Part shown: positions 1-7,704 of the stretch, piece by piece | How positions within the stretch are numbered: position 1 is the stretch's first letter | Layout of the letters: each line of letters opens with the position of its first letter | Source: Planctomycetia bacterium | GTDB taxonomy: Bacteria; Planctomycetota; UBA11346 | Direction: 5' to 3' | Length of the DNA: 8,059 bases | NCBI GenBank assembly: GCA_005801395.1 | Contig: SYDV01000276.1 | Coordinates: forward strand, 1 to 8,059 | The notes under the pieces: generated by a model | What the model saw: the letters and a program-made list of their open reading frames with translations, nothing else | What the model was told of the DNA's origin: nothing | The model's database searches: none | Translations under genes and position numbers: made by a program

Positions 1-321
1 AATGGCCACCTACAAGCAACGATAAATAACCATACCGGCACGCAACAAAGGTGTCGCGATACACAGCCTCTCACACTTAATGTCTGGCATCATATTGCTG
101 TGGTCGCCGACGGCACACAATTATTGTTATATCGTGATGGCCAACAGGTCGCTGCGATACCAAGCCTAGGGCTCGATCGCCAAGCATCAACAGCGTGGTG
201 GCTTGGCACGAACTACAACGGTGCTGATGTGTGGGATGGGCTCATTGATGAATGTGCCATTTTTTCTCGGCCGTTACGCGCCGAGGAAATTCACTCTCTA
301 GCCATAATGCCTGAGAAATGA
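1..321 (+). CDS. LamG-domain (concanavalin A-like) protein, C-terminal fragment
   Basis: The reading frame is open from the first base and stops with TGA at 319-321, so this is the last 106 codons of a protein that begins outside the window. What can be seen is the end of a LamG/jelly-roll domain: the strand motif WHHIAVVADG, then LLLYRDGQQVAAI, a WWLGTN strand, and the closing DGLIDECAIFSRPLRAEEI. The last motif is the usual final strand and helix of LamG domains, in which a short fold decision loop precedes 'F.R.L..EEI'. Such domains bind sugars or proteins outside the cell. In Planctomycetota and Verrucomicrobiota they are often fused to FecR or other surface modules, but the N-terminal part is missing, so the full architecture is unknown. 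The GTG at 100 is internal to the domain and not a start. The gene converges on the FecR-PA14 gene. Confidence 0.85.
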   Translation, partial: NGHLQATINNHTGTQQRCRDTQPLTLNVWHHIAVVADGTQLLLYRDGQQVAAIPSLGLDRQASTAWWLGTNYNGADVWDGLIDECAIFSRPLRAEEIHSLAIMPEK

Positions 322-484: not shown

Positions 485-514
485 TTGACGGGGAGCAAAA
501 TTGCGAGGTATCCT
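485..514 (+). promoter_or_regulatory. sigma70-like promoter of the intergenic RNA
   Basis: TTGACG (485-490) matches five of six bases of the -35 consensus. It is followed 18 bp later by TATCCT (509-514), which matches four of six bases of the -10 consensus. The predicted start is near 520-522, at the GGAAAA run. It faces a region that has no ORF but ends in a strong terminator, so it most likely drives a non-coding RNA. This is a motif call only. Confidence 0.5.
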
Positions 515-520
515 TAGATA

Positions 521-695
521 GGAAAAAACACCGAGCCCACCGGGTGCACATCACCAGAGCGCTGGGAGACCCACATCGCCATCTACCTTGGCAAAAGTCC
601 TGCTGCTTCTGGATGACGCCTCACGGCTGCAGTCCGGCAAACTCGGAAGTCCTCCTACCAACCGCTGGCCCCAGGCCAGCGGTTGCCGTTTTATA
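521..695 (+). ncRNA. Putative structured small RNA, about 175 nt, family unknown
   Basis: The stretch lies between a sigma70-like promoter and an intrinsic terminator and carries no convincing ORF. It is more GC-rich than the flanking intergenic DNA and can be folded by eye into a junction. CCGAG (531-535) pairs with CTCGG (642-646) as a closing stem. Inside it are hairpins GGTG/CACC (543-546/552-555), TGGG/CCCA (563-566/570-573), GCCA/TGGC (578-581/589-592), and a longer bulged stem at 611-635 capped by GCC-TCAC-GGC. The element AGTCC occurs three times (596, 631, 648). I compared it mentally with 4.5S SRP RNA, 6S RNA, 5S rRNA, tmRNA, RNase P RNA and the cobalamin, SAM, SAH and c-di-GMP riboswitches and saw no clear match. 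A riboswitch is unlikely because no + strand gene follows. Confidence 0.5.
659..695 (+). terminator. Strong intrinsic terminator of the intergenic RNA
   Basis: A perfect 12-bp stem, with arms 659-670 and 674-685 and core ACCGCTGGCC, is closed by the triloop CCA. It is followed after CCG by TTTT (689-692). The reverse strand has no U-run, so it acts in the + direction only. It lies 340 bp beyond the LamG stop codon, so it belongs to the intergenic RNA rather than to the LamG gene, though it would also stop read-through from that gene. Confidence 0.8.
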
Positions 696-833: not shown

Positions 834-2177
834 TTATTTATCAGTAGAAAATCGCTCGACGGGAATGATTTCAGGGCTTTGACTTGAACTAACCCAACTC
901 AATCGAATGAGCATGCCGGATTTTGGTTGGCGATACTCCACTCGTAATTGATGGCGTTTGCTGGCGTCTAAATTGATGGACGCTTGATGATCAGCTAAGC
1001 GATCTGCGTTCCAGGCATCAATTAATAATTTATTGTCGACGTGCAAACGAACACCCGCGTCGCTACGAAGAGTAAGAAGATATTTTTCACTGAACAAGGG
1101 TTGCAAATAGCCATCCCAACGCACGGAAAAGTCAGACTGACGTTGATCAATAGCGCGATTTTCTAAGCCTAAGTCTGCGCTAATAGTTGGTTCGATGCGA
1201 TCGAATAATGTTGAGCTGAAGGTGTTGCCCGCAAAATAAGATGCACGCAGACCGGAACGATAATCTTTGGTGATCTCAACAGGACGATGCACGAGTGGTC
1301 GAGCGATAGGAGACTGTTTGGCCATAACGGTGGCGTAGTGGCCCGTGGGCACTTCAACGCGCTTTAAGAGTCTCAAATCGGTAATTGCCACCAAACCGTG
1401 ATCGACTTCCAACCGCGTTGAATTAAGGGATTCCGTGTACTCTAATGTCAGCGCCGTACCGAGCACTTCTGCCTGGGCATTGGGTGTCACAAATAACATC
1501 GGTTGGCCAGCTGGTTGTTTGGTAACGTCGGCACTCACGCGCCCCCAGTTCAACACCACTCGTTTACCAACTTGATTCACTGTCGAGCCCGTCGCGGCTA
1601 ATTGAATTTCAGATCGTTGATCAATATGCAGCACCGTTCGATCCGTATAAAATATATCGGCTAAGGCACCATCGCTTACTTGAATACGGTCACCAGCCAA
1701 AAGAGCGAATCCCGATTTTCCAATCACTTCCTGTTTTTCCCGCACGACCACCACCTGTCCTGAAGTTGTGGTAAGCGTCGCGAATGGGACCACCTCTTCG
1801 GTTGGCTCTGTCAGCATCAACACAACGGCAATGCTGGCTGCCAACGCGCCTATCGGAATAAGCATGTTAATTGCACGACGTGTTGCAGGACGAATGGGTG
1901 CGACGCGTAAAGACGGACGCCGACGATTTGCGTTAATTTCCGCTTCCGTCTGTACCGAACGATTACTGGAATCATCAACCAAATTTTCAACAATACTGGC
2001 GCTACTATTGGCGGTTACCTGACGCGCGGCTTCTGACATTAATTCCCATTCTTGCAACACCGTGACAAATTGCGCCCGCATCTCTTTGTTACTGGAGAGC
2101 ACGCGTTTCATTTCCACGACGCCTTCGTCCGTGAGGCGATTAGCTAAATAATCTTCAAATAAGGCATCATATTTCAT
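834..2177 (-). CDS. FecR-like anti-sigma/sensor membrane protein with PA14 domain
   Basis: A 447-residue protein that probably controls the sigma factor encoded just upstream. Residues 1-55 form a short helical cytoplasmic module like the N-terminus of FecR-type anti-sigma proteins. An RRR/RPATRR basic stretch (85-101) precedes one membrane span (about 103-123). Residues 130-270 form a FecR domain, with typical motifs GDRIQVSDGALADI and TPNAQAEVLGTALTLE. Residues 308-445 are a PA14 domain: GLRASYFAG, FSVRWDGYLQP, LRSDAGVRLHVDNKLLIDAW and VEYRQP. PA14 domains commonly bind carbohydrate or close over partner modules, so this one may sense polysaccharide or envelope material outside the cell; that is inference. 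The start codon overlaps the sigma stop (ATGA), and AGGGA (2186-2190) lies 8 nt before it. It has no TonB-receptor neighbour, so it is not a siderophore FecIR system. Confidence 0.85.
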   Translation of the reverse strand: MKYDALFEDYLANRLTDEGVVEMKRVLSSNKEMRAQFVTVLQEWELMSEAARQVTANSSASIVENLVDDSSNRSVQTEAEINANRRRPSLRVAPIRPATRRAINMLIPIGALAASIAVVLMLTEPTEEVVPFATLTTTSGQVVVVREKQEVIGKSGFALLAGDRIQVSDGALADIFYTDRTVLHIDQRSEIQLAATGSTVNQVGKRVVLNWGRVSADVTKQPAGQPMLFVTPNAQAEVLGTALTLEYTESLNSTRLEVDHGLVAITDLRLLKRVEVPTGHYATVMAKQSPIARPLVHRPVEITKDYRSGLRASYFAGNTFSSTLFDRIEPTISADLGLENRAIDQRQSDFSVRWDGYLQPLFSEKYLLTLRSDAGVRLHVDNKLLIDAWNADRLADHQASINLDASKRHQLRVEYRQPKSGMLIRLSWVSSSQSPEIIPVERFSTDK

Positions 2178-2809
2178 GGCTTTATTCCCTGACTTTCTAA
2201 GCGCTTACTTAAACACGTCCGTAATTTATCGCGCAAGCGCGACAACATCAGACGAATGGCATTGACACTGCGACCATGGCGGTCGGCCAACGTTTCACAT
2301 GATTCTTGCTGCCAGTAAAAACCGGCGAGCAAATTAAGATTAAATTGATTGAGACGCGACATGCATTCACGCAACGAAGCACTCATTGCCCGCTGCTGAT
2401 CGGCACGAAGGTCATCTAAATTTTCCGTCATCGCTTTTTCAACCAAATCTAACAACTCTTGATCTGGGGTTGAAGATTCACGTCCGCGACTGCGGATCGC
2501 TTCTAAGGTTTTAAAATGCACAATTTGTCGCACCCATAAAAATATGCCTGTCTCATTGGTGAGATCCTGCCATTTATTCATCACCACCAAATAGGCTTCT
2601 TGTACAACATCTTCTGCCTGCGACCAATTGCGCAGCATGGCGTAGGCATAACTCAGCAACGCATCGCGGTATTGGAATACCGACTTCACCACGTCATCAC
2701 GTGAACGTAAAACACCTTTATCCACCGACGCTCCGGTCGTGGTTGGAACAACTGGCACCGCAATATCGCCTAGTTCAGTCGGCTGGTTGTCCGAATTCGT
2801 TTGCGACAC
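2174..2809 (-). CDS. ECF-type RNA polymerase sigma factor, Rhodopirellula/Verrucomicrobium-like
   Basis: A 211-residue sigma70-family factor of ECF layout. Region 2 spans about 44-108: YRDALLSYAYAMLRNWSQAEDVVQEAYL, then WVRQIVHFKTLEAIR for -10 recognition. Region 4 spans about 143-205: RECMSRLNQFNLNLLAGFY, then a helix-turn-helix ETLADRHGRSVNAIRLMLSRLRDKL that reads the -35 element. There is no sigma 3 domain, and a 35-residue polar N-terminal extension precedes region 2. The start is GTG at 2809, chosen because GAGGT (2817-2821) lies 7 nt upstream. It is translationally coupled to the FecR-PA14 gene by an ATGA overlap, which indicates that the two products work as a sigma/anti-sigma pair. 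A 190-bp gap separates it from the upstream histidine kinase gene, so it probably has its own promoter, although I could not find a good sigma70 match there. Confidence 0.9.
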   Translation of the reverse strand: MSQTNSDNQPTELGDIAVPVVPTTTGASVDKGVLRSRDDVVKSVFQYRDALLSYAYAMLRNWSQAEDVVQEAYLVVMNKWQDLTNETGIFLWVRQIVHFKTLEAIRSRGRESSTPDQELLDLVEKAMTENLDDLRADQQRAMSASLRECMSRLNQFNLNLLAGFYWQQESCETLADRHGRSVNAIRLMLSRLRDKLRTCLSKRLESQGIKP

Positions 2810-2999: not shown

Positions 3000-3713
3000 T
3001 TACGCTGTAGGCCATTGTAGCGTAAAGGTGCTCCCACCGGGACTCGATTCGAGCAAGCGTAAGTCACCACCCTGTCGTCGTTGGCAGCGACGCGCCACGG
3101 TTGCCCCCAAACCCAACCCACGAGTTCGCCCGGTAATGAAGGGTTCAAACAAACGCTCCTTAAGAATTTCAGGAACGCCACTGCCCGTATCGCTGACTGA
3201 AATTTGGCCATCGATCACGGACACGGTCACGCATCCGCCGACACGACAAGCCTGAACGGCATTACGAATCACGTTGAGCAATGCCTGTCGAGAAAGGTCC
3301 GCATCACCCATGGCTCGTCCACGGCCACTGAGGCGCAATTCTACGCCTGCACGTTCTGCTTCTGACATGGATAAATCAACCGTCGTGCGTGCGAGCCATG
3401 GTAAATCGAGCGGACGAATTTCCGGTTCACGTTCACGACTATAATAGAGTAAATCGCTGACTAAGTGACCAAGGCGTTCCACTTCGGATAAAATAATATC
3501 AACACATTCGCAATCTGGGCCGCTGGTTACCACTTCTCGTAATAATTCTGCATTGGCACTAATGCCAGCTAATGGATTGCGGATTTCATGGGCCACGGTT
3601 GCCGACATACGCCCCATCTCGGCCAATGGCCGTAAGCGATCAATTTCGGCTTGCAGTTGTTCACTGCTCAGGGTCTCGCCATCCGGCACTTGGTTGTGTG
3701 GCAATGCGCTCAT
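3000..3713 (-). CDS. Minimal NtrB-like histidine kinase without sensor domain
   Basis: A 237-residue histidine kinase that should phosphorylate the NtrC-type regulator encoded immediately upstream. After a short N-terminal helix (about 15-35) it goes straight into HisKA. The H-box is ATVAHEIRNPLAG with phospho-acceptor His42, and HExxN is present, which in this family also supports phosphatase activity. The ATPase domain shows the N-box LLNVIRNAVQA (Asn151), the G1 box SDTGSGVP (Asp175), the F-box LFEPFITG and the G2 box RGLGLGATVARR, and ends with GGSTFTLQWP. All catalytic elements are intact. There is no PAS, GAF, HAMP or membrane segment, so it is cytoplasmic and must get its input from a partner. 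ATG at 3713 overlaps the regulator's TAA by one base (TAATG), implying coupled translation. The usual family length is 350 residues or more; the missing part is the sensor. Confidence 0.92.
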   Translation of the reverse strand: MSALPHNQVPDGETLSSEQLQAEIDRLRPLAEMGRMSATVAHEIRNPLAGISANAELLREVVTSGPDCECVDIILSEVERLGHLVSDLLYYSREREPEIRPLDLPWLARTTVDLSMSEAERAGVELRLSGRGRAMGDADLSRQALLNVIRNAVQACRVGGCVTVSVIDGQISVSDTGSGVPEILKERLFEPFITGRTRGLGLGATVARRCQRRQGGDLRLLESSPGGSTFTLQWPTA

Positions 3714-5179
3714 TAAGCCGTCTCGGCTATAATTTCATCGTGCAACGACTCAGACGGATCTAATTCGCGTAATTTATTATAGAGCGTGGTACGATTAATG
3801 CCGAGTAATTCAGCCGCGCGACTTTTTTGTCCGCCGGTTTCTGCTAACGCAGCACGTACTAACAACGCTTCCACTCGCGCTAAATTTCGTTCACCTGCCG
3901 GTATAATTAAGGCACCCTTGGGTACTGCCGCGGCATCAGTGACTGACGGATGGGAAACAGAAGCCGGGGCTGAGGTCATCAGCGGTGCCATTTGTATATT
4001 TTGGATAGGAATACAGGTAAGAATCTCATCCATGCATAAATCTTGCGCTTCAATAATGTCGCCTTCGGCGGTAATAACTCCGCGTTCTACCGCATTTGAT
4101 AGTTCACGAACATTGCCTGGCCAAGCATATGCTGACATAGCGACACGTGCGTCTTTACTTAATTGCATTTGTGGCCGACCTAACTCAGGTCCTAAACGTT
4201 TAAGTAAATGATCGGCAATCGGCAAAATATCTTCTGGGCGTTCGCGCAGCGCGGGAACTTGAATCGGCACCACGCGTAAACGGAAATATAAATCTTGGCG
4301 GAAACGACCACCGGCCACTTCTTGACGCAAATCACGGTTAGTTGCGGCCACCACACGCACATCTACGGCCACGTCATTCAATCCGCCGACTCGGCGAAAA
4401 CGACGTTCTTGTAATACGCGCAGTAATTTAGTTTGGAGCTGCAATGGCATTTCGCCCACTTCGTCAAGGAAGATGGTGCCACCATCAGCAATTTCGAATA
4501 AACCGGCCTTACCTTTACTATCAGCGCCCGTGAACGCCCCTTTTTCGTAGCCGAACAATTCCGCTTCGAGCAGATTTTCCGACAACGCCGCGCAATTAAT
4601 TGCGACAAATTGCTTTTCCTGTCGAGCCGAACGTTCATGAATGGCTTTCGCGACTAATTCTTTACCAACTCCACTTTCGCCCTGAATTAAAACCGTCGTG
4701 CCTGGAACACCAGCGACGCGTTTGACTAAGGCCATCACGCGTTTCATCGCCACACCATGGGCAATTAATGACTGACGTCCTGATTGTTTACCGGATAAAC
4801 GTGCGACTTGACGACCAAGCCGCTGTTTTTCTAACAATAAATTAACCGTCGTGCGTAACCGTTCGAGCTTAAATGGCTTCTCAATAAAATCGGAAATGCC
4901 TTGTTTCAAGGCATCAACGGCCAAATCAACACTGCCATGTCCCGTCAATAACACGATTGGAAGTTCGGGATCAATGGCGCGGATTTTTGCGGCAAACGCA
5001 AGGCCGTCACCATCCGGTAATTTTTGATCCAACAATACCAGGTCTGGATACGCGTCACGTACTAAGGCGAGGGCCTGTTCCCCAGTTTCCGCTTCTCGCA
5101 CGGTAATTCCAGAAAAAGCACGGGTAATTGCGTGGCGGATAGATGATTCGTCATCGACAACTAAGATGGTATCACTCAT
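3713..5179 (-). CDS. NtrC-family response regulator, sigma54-dependent activator
   Basis: A 488-residue transcription activator of sigma54 promoters. The receiver domain (1-120) has the acidic pair Asp9-Asp10, phospho-acceptor Asp51 in LVLLDQKLPDGDG, Thr79 and Lys101. The AAA+ domain (about 137-370) has Walker A GESGVGKE (167-174), the sigma54-contacting loop GAFTGA (214-219), Walker B GGTIFLDEVGEM (Asp239-Glu240) and the arginine-finger region FRQDLYFRL (293-301). After a 45-residue Ala/Pro/Ser-rich linker, a Fis-type helix-turn-helix (432-472) ends in SRAAELLGINRTTLYNKLREL. All key residues are present, so it should be active. Its partner histidine kinase overlaps its stop codon. The ribosome binding site before ATG 5179 is weak (GGA, 8 nt away), and a short leader ORF precedes it. 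No convincing -24/-12 sigma54 promoter was found in the gaps of this window, so its targets may lie elsewhere. Confidence 0.95.
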   Translation of the reverse strand: MSDTILVVDDESSIRHAITRAFSGITVREAETGEQALALVRDAYPDLVLLDQKLPDGDGLAFAAKIRAIDPELPIVLLTGHGSVDLAVDALKQGISDFIEKPFKLERLRTTVNLLLEKQRLGRQVARLSGKQSGRQSLIAHGVAMKRVMALVKRVAGVPGTTVLIQGESGVGKELVAKAIHERSARQEKQFVAINCAALSENLLEAELFGYEKGAFTGADSKGKAGLFEIADGGTIFLDEVGEMPLQLQTKLLRVLQERRFRRVGGLNDVAVDVRVVAATNRDLRQEVAGGRFRQDLYFRLRVVPIQVPALRERPEDILPIADHLLKRLGPELGRPQMQLSKDARVAMSAYAWPGNVRELSNAVERGVITAEGDIIEAQDLCMDEILTCIPIQNIQMAPLMTSAPASVSHPSVTDAAAVPKGALIIPAGERNLARVEALLVRAALAETGGQKSRAAELLGINRTTLYNKLRELDPSESLHDEIIAETA

Positions 5180-5347: not shown

Positions 5348-7666
5348 TCAACGTATGCTAACAACACTTTGTATGGGAATCAGACCTAAACGCTCAGGAC
5401 GGGCTCCATCATTTCCTGCTTCTAACGGAATGCCGGTCACTGGAGTCGGGGCTTGAATCAACAAACGATCCCATTGCCACTCATTCGCCTTAGGCCCTTG
5501 CCACAGCAATCCGGTGGCCCGCGCATATAAACTGATCCCATTCATCGCAGGTATTTGCGCATGACTTGCCATGATACCGATTTGGACATCGCGAATCGCG
5601 ACATCGCGTAGGGTCGCAATCATTCCGGACTCTAAACGTAAACCAATGATGGCCTTTGATTTGGCAACTTCATTAGCCACGAGTTCAAGTGCATCGCATT
5701 CTATTTGACCATTAACCGCATGAATAATAGCGCCGTCGGTAGCAACATTGGCAATCAATCGCGAACGGCTGAGGTTAGCTCGTCCATCGCGTAAATTTAG
5801 TGCCGGTACTTGTTGCACCGTACTATCGCTCACGGTGGCAATGCCTTGCAAGTCAACGACGACACCGCCCATTAATTGAGTGTGATTTAAGGTAACCTGC
5901 GCGCCACTGATGACCACTTGCCCAGAAATAGCACAATGTTCGAACGTCGCCTTTGCACCGGCCATCGCTTCTATCGCCGCGCCTTGTGCATGAATCATTT
6001 CAATGCCTGAAATGGAAAAATTTGCCAGACCTGGTTCGCATCGCACTAACGGAATATCTGCCGCCAATCCGGTATTACTTACTCGCACCCCAGGAGCAGC
6101 CGCACGAATCGTGACCCCCGCATGGGCAACACCAAATCGCCACGGACCAGGATAATCACCTGGCTCTAATAATAAGGTTCGCTGTTGTTGTGCGGCACTG
6201 GCAAGGACCACCGCAAAAGTTGCGGGCGATACACGTTGGCCAACCGTGCCTTGTGTACTTAACCACCAACCTGCGGCGGCCATACATGCCACAACACCAC
6301 ATGCGACTAACACCACGAAACTACGGCGCGTGGAAGAAGCTTTAACGCGTACCGTTGGATGAATTAGCGCATGTTCTGATGATGATTCACGGCGTATATT
6401 CGTGCTAGCGACGCCGGCATTTGGTGTGCTTTTTTGTGTGCTATTTTGTGAGCTATTTTGTGAGCTATTTTGTGTGCTATTTTGCGCTCCGTTTTGCCCC
6501 GTCTTTAAAGGAGCTGCGGACGAAGTCGAAGAAGATGATGCGGACACCAAATGTGCCGCTGAGCCCATGGCGTTACTCAGAGCCGCTTCTTGGATTTTAA
6601 TAATTCCCGGCGCTAGTAATTTAATAGCACCTATGACTTCGTCCCACGTGTTGTAACGGCGCTTTCTGCTCTTTTCTAACATCCGACTCATTAATTTAAT
6701 TAAGCCTTCACCAGCGCCAACCTGACGCAATTGTTCTAAATCGGCACTCTCCGTCACCTGTTTATACATAATGATGGTTGAACTTTTGCCGTGGTGCATG
6801 GTTTGCCCCAACAGCGCGTGATAAACAGACGCGGCTAAACTATAAATATCGGCACGTTGATCGAGATCGATTTCGCCGAAGGCTTGCTCTGGCGGCATAT
6901 AATGGGGTGTCCCTAATGCCATACCGGCACCAGTTAACATGCCTTTGCTTTCTTCTTCGTCTGGCGCACCGCCTTGCACGATAACTTTGGCTAAACCAAA
7001 ATCACATATCTTGGCGCAAAACGGTTCTGGCACATGGGGCCGTGGCGGCGCCAACATGAGGTTCGCCGGTTTCACATCGCGGTGTAAAACTCCGTGATCC
7101 CAGGCATATTTGAGCGCCATGGCCACTTGCCATAAGATAAGAATGGCCTGGTCTTCGGGAACCTTACCACGTTCGACCATGCGTTGTTTTAAGCTCGGAC
7201 CTTTAACCAATTCCATGACTAAATATCGCTGTCCCTCAACTTCTCCGGCAGCTAATGACTGAGTAATATGTGGATGTTTCAACCGCATCGACGCGCGGGC
7301 TTCACGTTGAAAGCGACGCGCATTCTCAGCATTACGTGCTAATTTAGAGGATAATAATTTAACTGCTGCTTCATCGCCTTTTTCATTAACCGCACGAAAG
7401 ACATCGCCCATACCGCCGCTACCAATGCGTCCTTGCAGGACATAGCCTTCGACTTCCAACGCACGAATAGAAGTTGAGCTAACATATTTGCGCAGATCCC
7501 GCGCTTGGACATCGGTGACAAAACCCATTTCTAATATGAGAAACCACAAACCACGCTCGACCCCACGGTCAGCTAATTCCTGTTGTTCCTTTTTGGCTTT
7601 GTCGACCTGCTCCATGGTCAACACACGGTTGTCGAGCGCCAATTGCACCAGTCGGTGATCTTCCAT
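5348..7666 (-). CDS. Transmembrane Ser/Thr protein kinase with beta-helix ectodomain
   Basis: A 772-residue Hanks-type kinase (numbering from ATG 7666). Residues 5-62 resemble two MshEN/GspE-N-like helical units, RLVQLALDNRVLT...Q and LWFLILEMGFVT. The catalytic domain (about 74-350) is intact: G-loop GRIGSGGMGDVF (79-90), Lys103, Glu122, HRDVKPAN (195-202), DFG (222-224), GTPHYMPPEQ (252-261) and RADIYSLAASVYHALLG. A Ser/Asn/Gln-rich linker with QNSS repeats (391-414) leads to one membrane span (450-469). The C-terminal part (about 474-725) has short, regularly repeating beta strands that start with RTLLLEPGDYPGPW, typical of right-handed beta-helix (pectate-lyase-like) domains, probably outside the cytoplasmic membrane. 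Most bacterial kinases of this type carry PASTA domains there instead. The start could be GTG 7684 (778 residues), but a promoter -10 box lies just downstream of it, so ATG 7666 is preferred. Substrates are unknown; the adjacent two-component pair is a candidate. Confidence 0.9.
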   Translation of the reverse strand: MEDHRLVQLALDNRVLTMEQVDKAKKEQQELADRGVERGLWFLILEMGFVTDVQARDLRKYVSSTSIRALEVEGYVLQGRIGSGGMGDVFRAVNEKGDEAAVKLLSSKLARNAENARRFQREARASMRLKHPHITQSLAAGEVEGQRYLVMELVKGPSLKQRMVERGKVPEDQAILILWQVAMALKYAWDHGVLHRDVKPANLMLAPPRPHVPEPFCAKICDFGLAKVIVQGGAPDEEESKGMLTGAGMALGTPHYMPPEQAFGEIDLDQRADIYSLAASVYHALLGQTMHHGKSSTIIMYKQVTESADLEQLRQVGAGEGLIKLMSRMLEKSRKRRYNTWDEVIGAIKLLAPGIIKIQEAALSNAMGSAAHLVSASSSSTSSAAPLKTGQNGAQNSTQNSSQNSSQNSTQKSTPNAGVASTNIRRESSSEHALIHPTVRVKASSTRRSFVVLVACGVVACMAAAGWWLSTQGTVGQRVSPATFAVVLASAAQQQRTLLLEPGDYPGPWRFGVAHAGVTIRAAAPGVRVSNTGLAADIPLVRCEPGLANFSISGIEMIHAQGAAIEAMAGAKATFEHCAISGQVVISGAQVTLNHTQLMGGVVVDLQGIATVSDSTVQQVPALNLRDGRANLSRSRLIANVATDGAIIHAVNGQIECDALELVANEVAKSKAIIGLRLESGMIATLRDVAIRDVQIGIMASHAQIPAMNGISLYARATGLLWQGPKANEWQWDRLLIQAPTPVTGIPLEAGNDGARPERLGLIPIQSVVSIR
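6425..6496 (-). repeat. 12-nt tandem repeat encoding a QNS[S/T] linker
   Basis: Six 12-nt units in frame with the kinase gene encode QNGA, QNST, QNSS, QNSS, QNST and QKST. The four central units are nearly identical (on the + strand a repeat of GCTATTTTGTGA with T/A variants), while the outer ones have diverged. The tract sits in the cytoplasmic linker between the kinase domain and the membrane span. Its copy number could change by slippage without shifting the frame. The Ser/Thr residues may also be phosphorylated. Confidence 0.8.
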
Positions 7667-7674
7667 GACCGAGG

Positions 7675-7704
7675 ATTGTACCACGCGATTTGACTCACGC
7701 GCAA
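7675..7704 (-). promoter_or_regulatory. Promoter of the Ser/Thr kinase gene, predicted leaderless mRNA
   Basis: TTGCGC (7704-7699) is followed after 18 bp by TACAAT (7680-7675), which matches five of six -10 bases. The predicted transcription start, 7-8 nt past the -10 box, falls at or beside the ATG at 7666, which has no Shine-Dalgarno sequence. The promoter lies in the 52-bp gap after the Xer stop codon and overlaps the alternative GTG start at 7684, which would then not be in this transcript. Confidence 0.5.

Follow-up and report, generated by a model that had tools for sequence, protein, structure and literature searches.

A candidate family of stand-alone structured RNA encoded beside a FecR/PA14 gene in one planctomycete lineage

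The window, as the whole stretch of 8,059 nt of DNA analysed here is called, comes from an uncultured planctomycete and very probably contains a genuine noncoding RNA gene (positions 485–693, plus strand) between two genes, as judged from comparison with its relatives. This gene would be single-copy, would specify a structured noncoding RNA of ~165–175 nt and would have been passed down at the same locus within a single planctomycete lineage. With moderate confidence, we consider the candidate as a whole to be a stand-alone, single-copy, lineage-restricted and trans-acting structured RNA of a new family, perhaps used as a protein platform. The candidate is an uncatalogued RNA family within an already known kind of gene, and the function proposed for it below is putative. 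The initial annotation had proposed a stand-alone structured RNA gene, perhaps an undescribed planctomycete sRNA, and this proposal gains support from conservation confined to the unit, compensatory changes, the lack of a reading frame common to the three sequences and the lack of a match in Rfam.

Homologues were reached through the protein encoded by the neighbouring FecR/PA14 gene. Of the 43 proteins listed for it, 25 were aligned, and this alignment led to two planctomycete MAGs, CANETI (G001; isolate CH-Jul18-104, loci L001 and L003) and JACDEI (G002; isolate MGR_bin356, loci L002 and L005). The candidate RNA was present as a single copy in each of them, beside the same FecR/PA14 gene, and the other matches within these two genomes were short and weak, one of them corresponding to the terminator hairpin of the RNA in reverse. 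The RNA of the window was 95–98% identical to that of CANETI and 80–81% identical to that of JACDEI (135/166 positions, 81%, over the RNA); the lower values, 95% and 80%, refer to the parts of the DNA that could be aligned. The FecR/PA14 protein next to it was 56% identical (window query vs. JACDEI). When identity between the window and CANETI was counted in bins of 25 nt, it amounted to 10–20/25 at positions 326–475, 19–25/25 at 476–700 and 8–12/25 from 701 on. As seen in this alignment, the conserved block coincides with the predicted transcription unit, and identity to CANETI is that of the background past the terminator.

The genes around the RNA differ among the three genomes. In the window, the end of a LamG-domain gene (1–321, plus strand) precedes the RNA, which is followed by the FecR/PA14 gene (834–2177, minus strand) and an ECF sigma gene (2174–2809, minus strand). 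In CANETI, a gene for a 364-aa protein, an ECF gene, a LamG/FecR gene and the RNA are on one strand, and then come a convergent HEAT ORF and the FecR/PA14 gene, the latter divided over two contigs. The order in JACDEI is a homologue of the 364-aa gene (51% identity over 332 aa with the CANETI protein), the RNA and a 120-aa ORF on one strand, followed by the convergent FecR/PA14 gene. Regarding the sigma factor genes themselves, two ECF sigma/FecR-domain gene pairs, LamG-FecR and PA14-FecR, flank the RNA of CANETI and converge on it (L003:1481–3552 with L001). The window (1–321 and 834–2809) is compatible with this two-pair plan as far as it extends, and the plan was not seen in JACDEI, where the 364-aa homologue is upstream. 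Further along the window, adjacent genes for a histidine kinase and a sigma54-activator response regulator (3000–5179) lie beside a large protein kinase gene (5348–7684).

The promoter (TTGACG-18-TATCCT) and the 12-bp GC-rich terminator stem described in the initial annotation were found exactly as placed, and both hexamers recur in the two MAGs (Table 1). The promoter-like site (485–514) is sigma70-like, with 9/12 matches to the consensus, and the terminator-like stem has 12 pairs, 9 of them G–C, with a T-run (689–692) that begins 3 nt past the stem, after CCG. As bare consensus matches these elements are weak evidence, as a scan of a 521-nt region returned two promoters and one terminator compared to shuffle means of 0.5 and 0.8, respectively, and therefore the case relies on comparison. 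Between the window and JACDEI, 10/12 hexamer positions were identical vs. 7/18 positions of a spacer of equal length (Fisher P = 0.019). What makes both elements credible is that CANETI and JACDEI also have the hexamers, their 18-nt spacing and the stem. The candidate has a putative promoter of its own that is conserved in sequence among relatives and a terminator with a conserved stem, in which 2 double compensatory changes were found among the 12 pairs and from which the T-run is offset by 3 nt, both being features looked for in a stand-alone sRNA gene. On these grounds, a housekeeping sigma70-type promoter would start the RNA near 519–521 and an intrinsic terminator would end it near 690. 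Immediately upstream of the −35 box (470–484), the sequence reads TTGTATAACCTTTTG in the window and CANETI and CTGTACAAGGTTCAC in JACDEI, with a TGTA.AA..TT pattern kept across the three, possibly an activator site or an UP element.

Table 1. Coordinates in the window of the features assigned to the candidate RNA gene.
Feature	Position	Strand	Remarks
−35 hexamer TTGACG	485..490	+	6/6 identical in JACDEI, 5/6 in CANETI
−10 hexamer TATCCT	509..514	+	After an 18-nt spacer; 6/6 in CANETI, 4/6 (TATCTA) in JACDEI, spacing unchanged
Predicted noncoding RNA transcript	519..693	+	Conserved block; start ~519–521 and end in or after the T-run, as predicted from promoter and terminator
P0, 5′ arm UAGGA	519..523	+	Predicted end-closing helix with 653–657 (UCCUA); in full-length single-sequence folds of all three sequences
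P1, 5′ arm CCGAG	531..535	+	Pairs with 642–646 (CTCGG)
P2, 5′ arm	540..548	+	Pairs with 628–637
Invariant block 1 (24 nt)	546..569	+	Inner P2, three-way junction, P3 5′ arm; identical in all three sequences
P3, bulged	551–567/598–616	+	In single-sequence folds
Invariant block 2 (36 nt)	595..630	+	P3 3′ arm, P5 hairpin, inner P2; identical in all three sequences
P5 hairpin	618–620/625–627 (618–627)	+	At the three-way junction
P2, 3′ arm	628..637	+	Pairs with 540–548
P1, 3′ arm CTCGG	642..646	+	Pairs with 531–535
P0, 3′ arm UCCUA	653..657	+	Pairs with 519–523
Terminator stem-loop (12 bp)	659..685	+	Double changes in JACDEI: 666–678 U-A to C-G, 669–675 C-G to U-A

The single-sequence folds of the RNAs from the window, CANETI and JACDEI had a common plan, consisting of P0, P1, P2, P3, P5, a variable apex and the terminator. 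They depict a rod (P0, P1, P2 and P3) from which a side hairpin branches at a three-way junction, with a further small hairpin at the apex, instead of the possible five-stem junction closed by CCGAG/CTCGG that had been suggested, although the closing helix does pair in the window and CANETI, with 4/5 pairs in JACDEI. In such a rod, P0 would join the 5′ end of the RNA to the stretch immediately preceding the terminator, and the invariant centre would be the P2/P3/P5 junction with the bulged P3 helix. At the apex, 564–567 pair with 598–601 in the window and a local hairpin is formed in JACDEI. The fold of window positions 516–695 had an energy of −70.4 kcal/mol (z = −3.84, 0/200 shuffles as good), mostly due to the terminator. 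For the body alone, values of z = −1.88 (7/200 shuffles as good) in the window (519–657), −2.75 (1/200) in JACDEI and −0.94 (31/200) in a slice of CANETI without the 5′ P0 arm were obtained, so that the predicted body appears only modestly more stable than its shuffles.

Covariation was examined in a sample of three sequences, two of them (window and CANETI) nearly identical, by reading the fold of the window alone onto JACDEI (14 substitutions), with random placement in 20,000 trials as a control. Among the 54 pairs, 45 were unchanged, 1 had a single change, 5 had double changes that kept the pair and 3 were broken, compared to random averages of 0.6 (double) and 9.2 (broken); 0/20,000 trials were as good on either count. 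When P0 was left out (49 pairs), 3 double changes and 3 broken pairs were found (P = 0.0014 and 0.0026, respectively), and when the terminator was left out as well (37 pairs), 1 double change and 3 broken pairs, which was not significant (P = 0.090 and 0.067). In a separate shuffle control without P0, 21/500 shuffles were as high as the 3 double changes, with 0 double changes in every slid control; with P0 in its sequence register, there were also 3, with 24/500 shuffles as high, and of the six slid controls five had 0 double changes and the remaining one had 1.

The five double changes correspond to two in the terminator, one in P2 and two in P0. In the P2 helix of JACDEI, 545–631 changes from U-A to C-G, 544–633 changes from G-U to A-U and 541–636 is broken (C-G to C.A). 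P1 loses its outermost pair there and its remaining four pairs are invariant, as are P3 and P5. The P0 of JACDEI reads GUGGA/UCCAC, with two compensatory changes that depend on a 1-nt structural realignment made by hand, and under the sequence-only alignment 3/5 of its pairs are unpaired in this genome. Covariation, which had been suggested as a check on the stems, thus appeared in some of them and not in others, which were invariant or lost pairs: in this comparison of three sequences, P2 and the terminator are supported and P0 is probable, whereas P1, P3 and P5, in which all retained pairs are invariant, are predicted only.

A cmscan against Rfam 15 of the window, of its positions 470–710 and of six loci gave nothing credible at the candidate, in agreement with the annotated absence of a known RNA family. 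The sole match within 470–710 reached 12.1 bits (E = 5.5, cut-off 50), and the homologues in L004 and L005 gave none at E ≤ 5. The likeness to the bacterial small SRP RNA (RF00169), a rod-like housekeeping RNA of similar conservation, did not extend to its model, which had no match on the candidate, whereas distinct SRP matches were detected elsewhere in both MAGs (36.3 bits in CANETI, below the gathering cut-off of 40, and 42.2 bits in JACDEI, above it); this identity was rejected. Known CsrA sponges carry repeated GGA motifs in hairpin loops. The candidate is similar to RNAs of this CsrB/RsmY/Z type as a stand-alone sRNA with a terminator, and CsrA is encoded in both MAGs, but the RNA of the window has four GGA only (521, 565, 611 and 645). 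Two of them are within invariant blocks, in the window fold the motifs at 565 and 611 are base-paired or almost so, and in the predicted folds none lies clearly within the loop of a conserved hairpin, so a CsrA sponge was rejected for the number and placement of its GGA. A search for TROVE (Ro60), with Y RNA in mind, gave one marginal partial match in JACDEI (24.1 bits, cut-off 23) and none in CANETI. The Rhodopirellula-1 motif is listed in a table for Proteobacteria and Planctomycetes as an ambiguous RNA, probably cis-regulatory (Weinberg et al., 2010; PMC2864571). As the table assigns it no Rfam number, the novelty indicated by cmscan may not extend to this motif. No mention of the candidate RNA was found in the literature consulted.

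Conservation in sister genomes, another check that had been suggested, was found in the two MAGs but did not extend to most of the class. A DNA search detected the candidate in 2/98 relatives. Model R1 (E ≤ 0.1) gave matches in 11/23 genomes of the order (these 23 also make up the class set); the true copies scored 219 bits (CANETI) and 187 bits (JACDEI) and all the others at most 24.5 bits, five being the terminator hairpin alone, and the matches outside the two MAGs were read as chance. With model R2, the candidate was detected in 2/23 genomes of the class and not found in the other 21, and in 2/392 genomes sampled from the phylum and 2/392 relatives, in searches with stricter filters and at most 8 first-look candidates scored per listed genome, from which distant copies could escape. 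The FecR/PA14 alignment had matches somewhere in 17/23 class genomes, and the best orthologues besides those of the two MAGs (G003 and G004) had other genes and no candidate in their 3′ flanks of ~1.4–1.5 kb. Among the listed proteins there were 38 further FecR/PA14 relatives at 43–93% identity (P0002–P0039), which implies more loci. As far as the searched collections show, the distribution of the family is narrow. In viral contigs, no relative of the FecR/PA14 protein and no exact match to two conserved 21-mers were found, and sensitive blastn did not detect the candidate in plasmids or phages; a mobile or viral origin was rejected on these searches.

Regarding the kind of gene, the transcript might serve as the message for a small protein or have a dual function, as a frame opened by GTG at 544 runs through the terminator for 50 codons in the window and 54 in CANETI, with an in-frame ATG at 613 (27 codons). 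This frame qualifies the annotated lack of a credible ORF, but it is preceded by no Shine-Dalgarno-like sequence within 15 nt, and in JACDEI the start is ACG, a 1-nt insertion leaves 17 codons before a stop, and a later 4-nt insertion causes another shift. No reading frame common to the three sequences was found, as looked for in an sRNA gene, and the identity of both invariant blocks extends to all codon positions; a coding gene is unlikely and the RNA is most probably noncoding, a small-protein mRNA being extremely improbable. Just as improbable is a processed 3′ UTR: a same-strand gene is indeed upstream in all three genomes, but it encodes a LamG-domain protein in the window and CANETI vs. 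the 364-aa homologue in JACDEI, and the promoter hexamers are better kept than the spacer between them. The diverged 6S-type RNA contemplated in the initial annotation, or a second 6S copy that binds RNA polymerase, would fit the stand-alone unit, the paired ends, the size (6S RNA, SsrS, is about 150–190 nt) and the similar conservation between the two MAGs. However, RF00013 had no match on the candidate at E ≤ 10, the long central promoter-like bubble of 6S RNA is absent from the folds, and each MAG has a separate 6S match elsewhere (43.4 bits in CANETI and 43.5 in JACDEI, under the gathering cut-off of 46.4); 6S identity was rejected, with hardly any probability left to it. Compared between the two MAGs, the candidate is 82.5% identical, vs. 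88% for 6S and 85% for SRP RNA, and by this measure it evolves only slightly faster than the two housekeeping RNAs.

Regarding its mode of action, a cis-acting leader (riboswitch or attenuator) would require a downstream gene on the plus strand. The annotated absence of such a gene holds for the window and CANETI, in which the next gene is convergent, but not for JACDEI, where the 120-aa ORF (L005:1693–2055) starts 33 nt past the terminator stem. A same-strand gene thus follows at 1/3 loci, and a search of the window and of the two CANETI loci for this ORF gave no match at E ≤ 1e-3. The changes of JACDEI in the terminator arms have no counterpart in the upstream core, which is invariant, and inspection therefore gives no sign of a conserved antiterminator pairing; a cis-acting leader is very unlikely. 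Because a same-strand downstream gene is absent in two of the three genomes and no such pairing is evident, action in trans would be the most likely mode, and it is favoured also by the persistence of the RNA while its immediate neighbours vary; we consider it likely. One way of acting in trans would be as an antisense sRNA whose C/U-rich strand between P1 and the terminator pairs with mRNAs and blocks their ribosome-binding sites. Its pyrimidine-rich, Shine-Dalgarno-complementary character is kept (UCCUCC in the window and CANETI, CCUCUCC in JACDEI), and the gene has its own promoter and terminator, like typical sRNAs. However, this strand varies in its letters and is partly paired in P0, the invariant letters are largely in the paired core, and Hfq had no match in either MAG, a weak absence as MAGs may be incomplete; such an antisense role is possible but rather unlikely. 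Since both arms of the central helices are frozen and the outer stems and the apex vary, a platform for protein would be favoured over an antisense seed: the RNA may form a ribonucleoprotein or sequester a protein, and a plain antisense sRNA would fit less well. The pattern of conservation, on which this step is based alone, suggests a protein platform rather than antisense with about an even chance. A speculative and unlikely reading is that a new class of ribonucleoprotein or ligand-binding RNA, specific to this lineage and acting in trans in a mode unlike antisense, 6S or CsrA sponges, is built around the invariant three-way junction as a frozen tertiary core.

For the PVC group, which includes Planctomycetes, 8 distinct sRNAs appear in the table of a review that counts sRNAs by group vs. 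345 for Proteobacteria (PMC9029176). One candidate family, known from three sequences, is added here, of moderate interest to RNA biologists. As a conserved, single-copy and clearly delimited noncoding RNA gene, it offers a handle for direct tests of its ends, fold and protein partners, and the lack of an Hfq match in both MAGs raises a question about the mechanism of trans-acting RNAs in its hosts.

Two minor observations concern other elements of these genomes. The 6S RNA-like genes of the two MAGs (L012:1501–1654 and L013:1501–1654) are 88% identical to each other and look like diverged true 6S genes missed by default cut-offs; a study of Thermogutta reports no 6S homologue there and refers to two further planctomycetes that lack one (PMC5673643). 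Also, long inverted repeats were detected directly after the FecR/PA14 genes of JACDEI (L005:2152–2261, 42-nt arms, 88% complementary) and G004 (L050:1048–1212, 40-nt arms, 98% complementary); that of L005 attracts spurious matches to microRNA families, and both are possibly mobile repeat elements.
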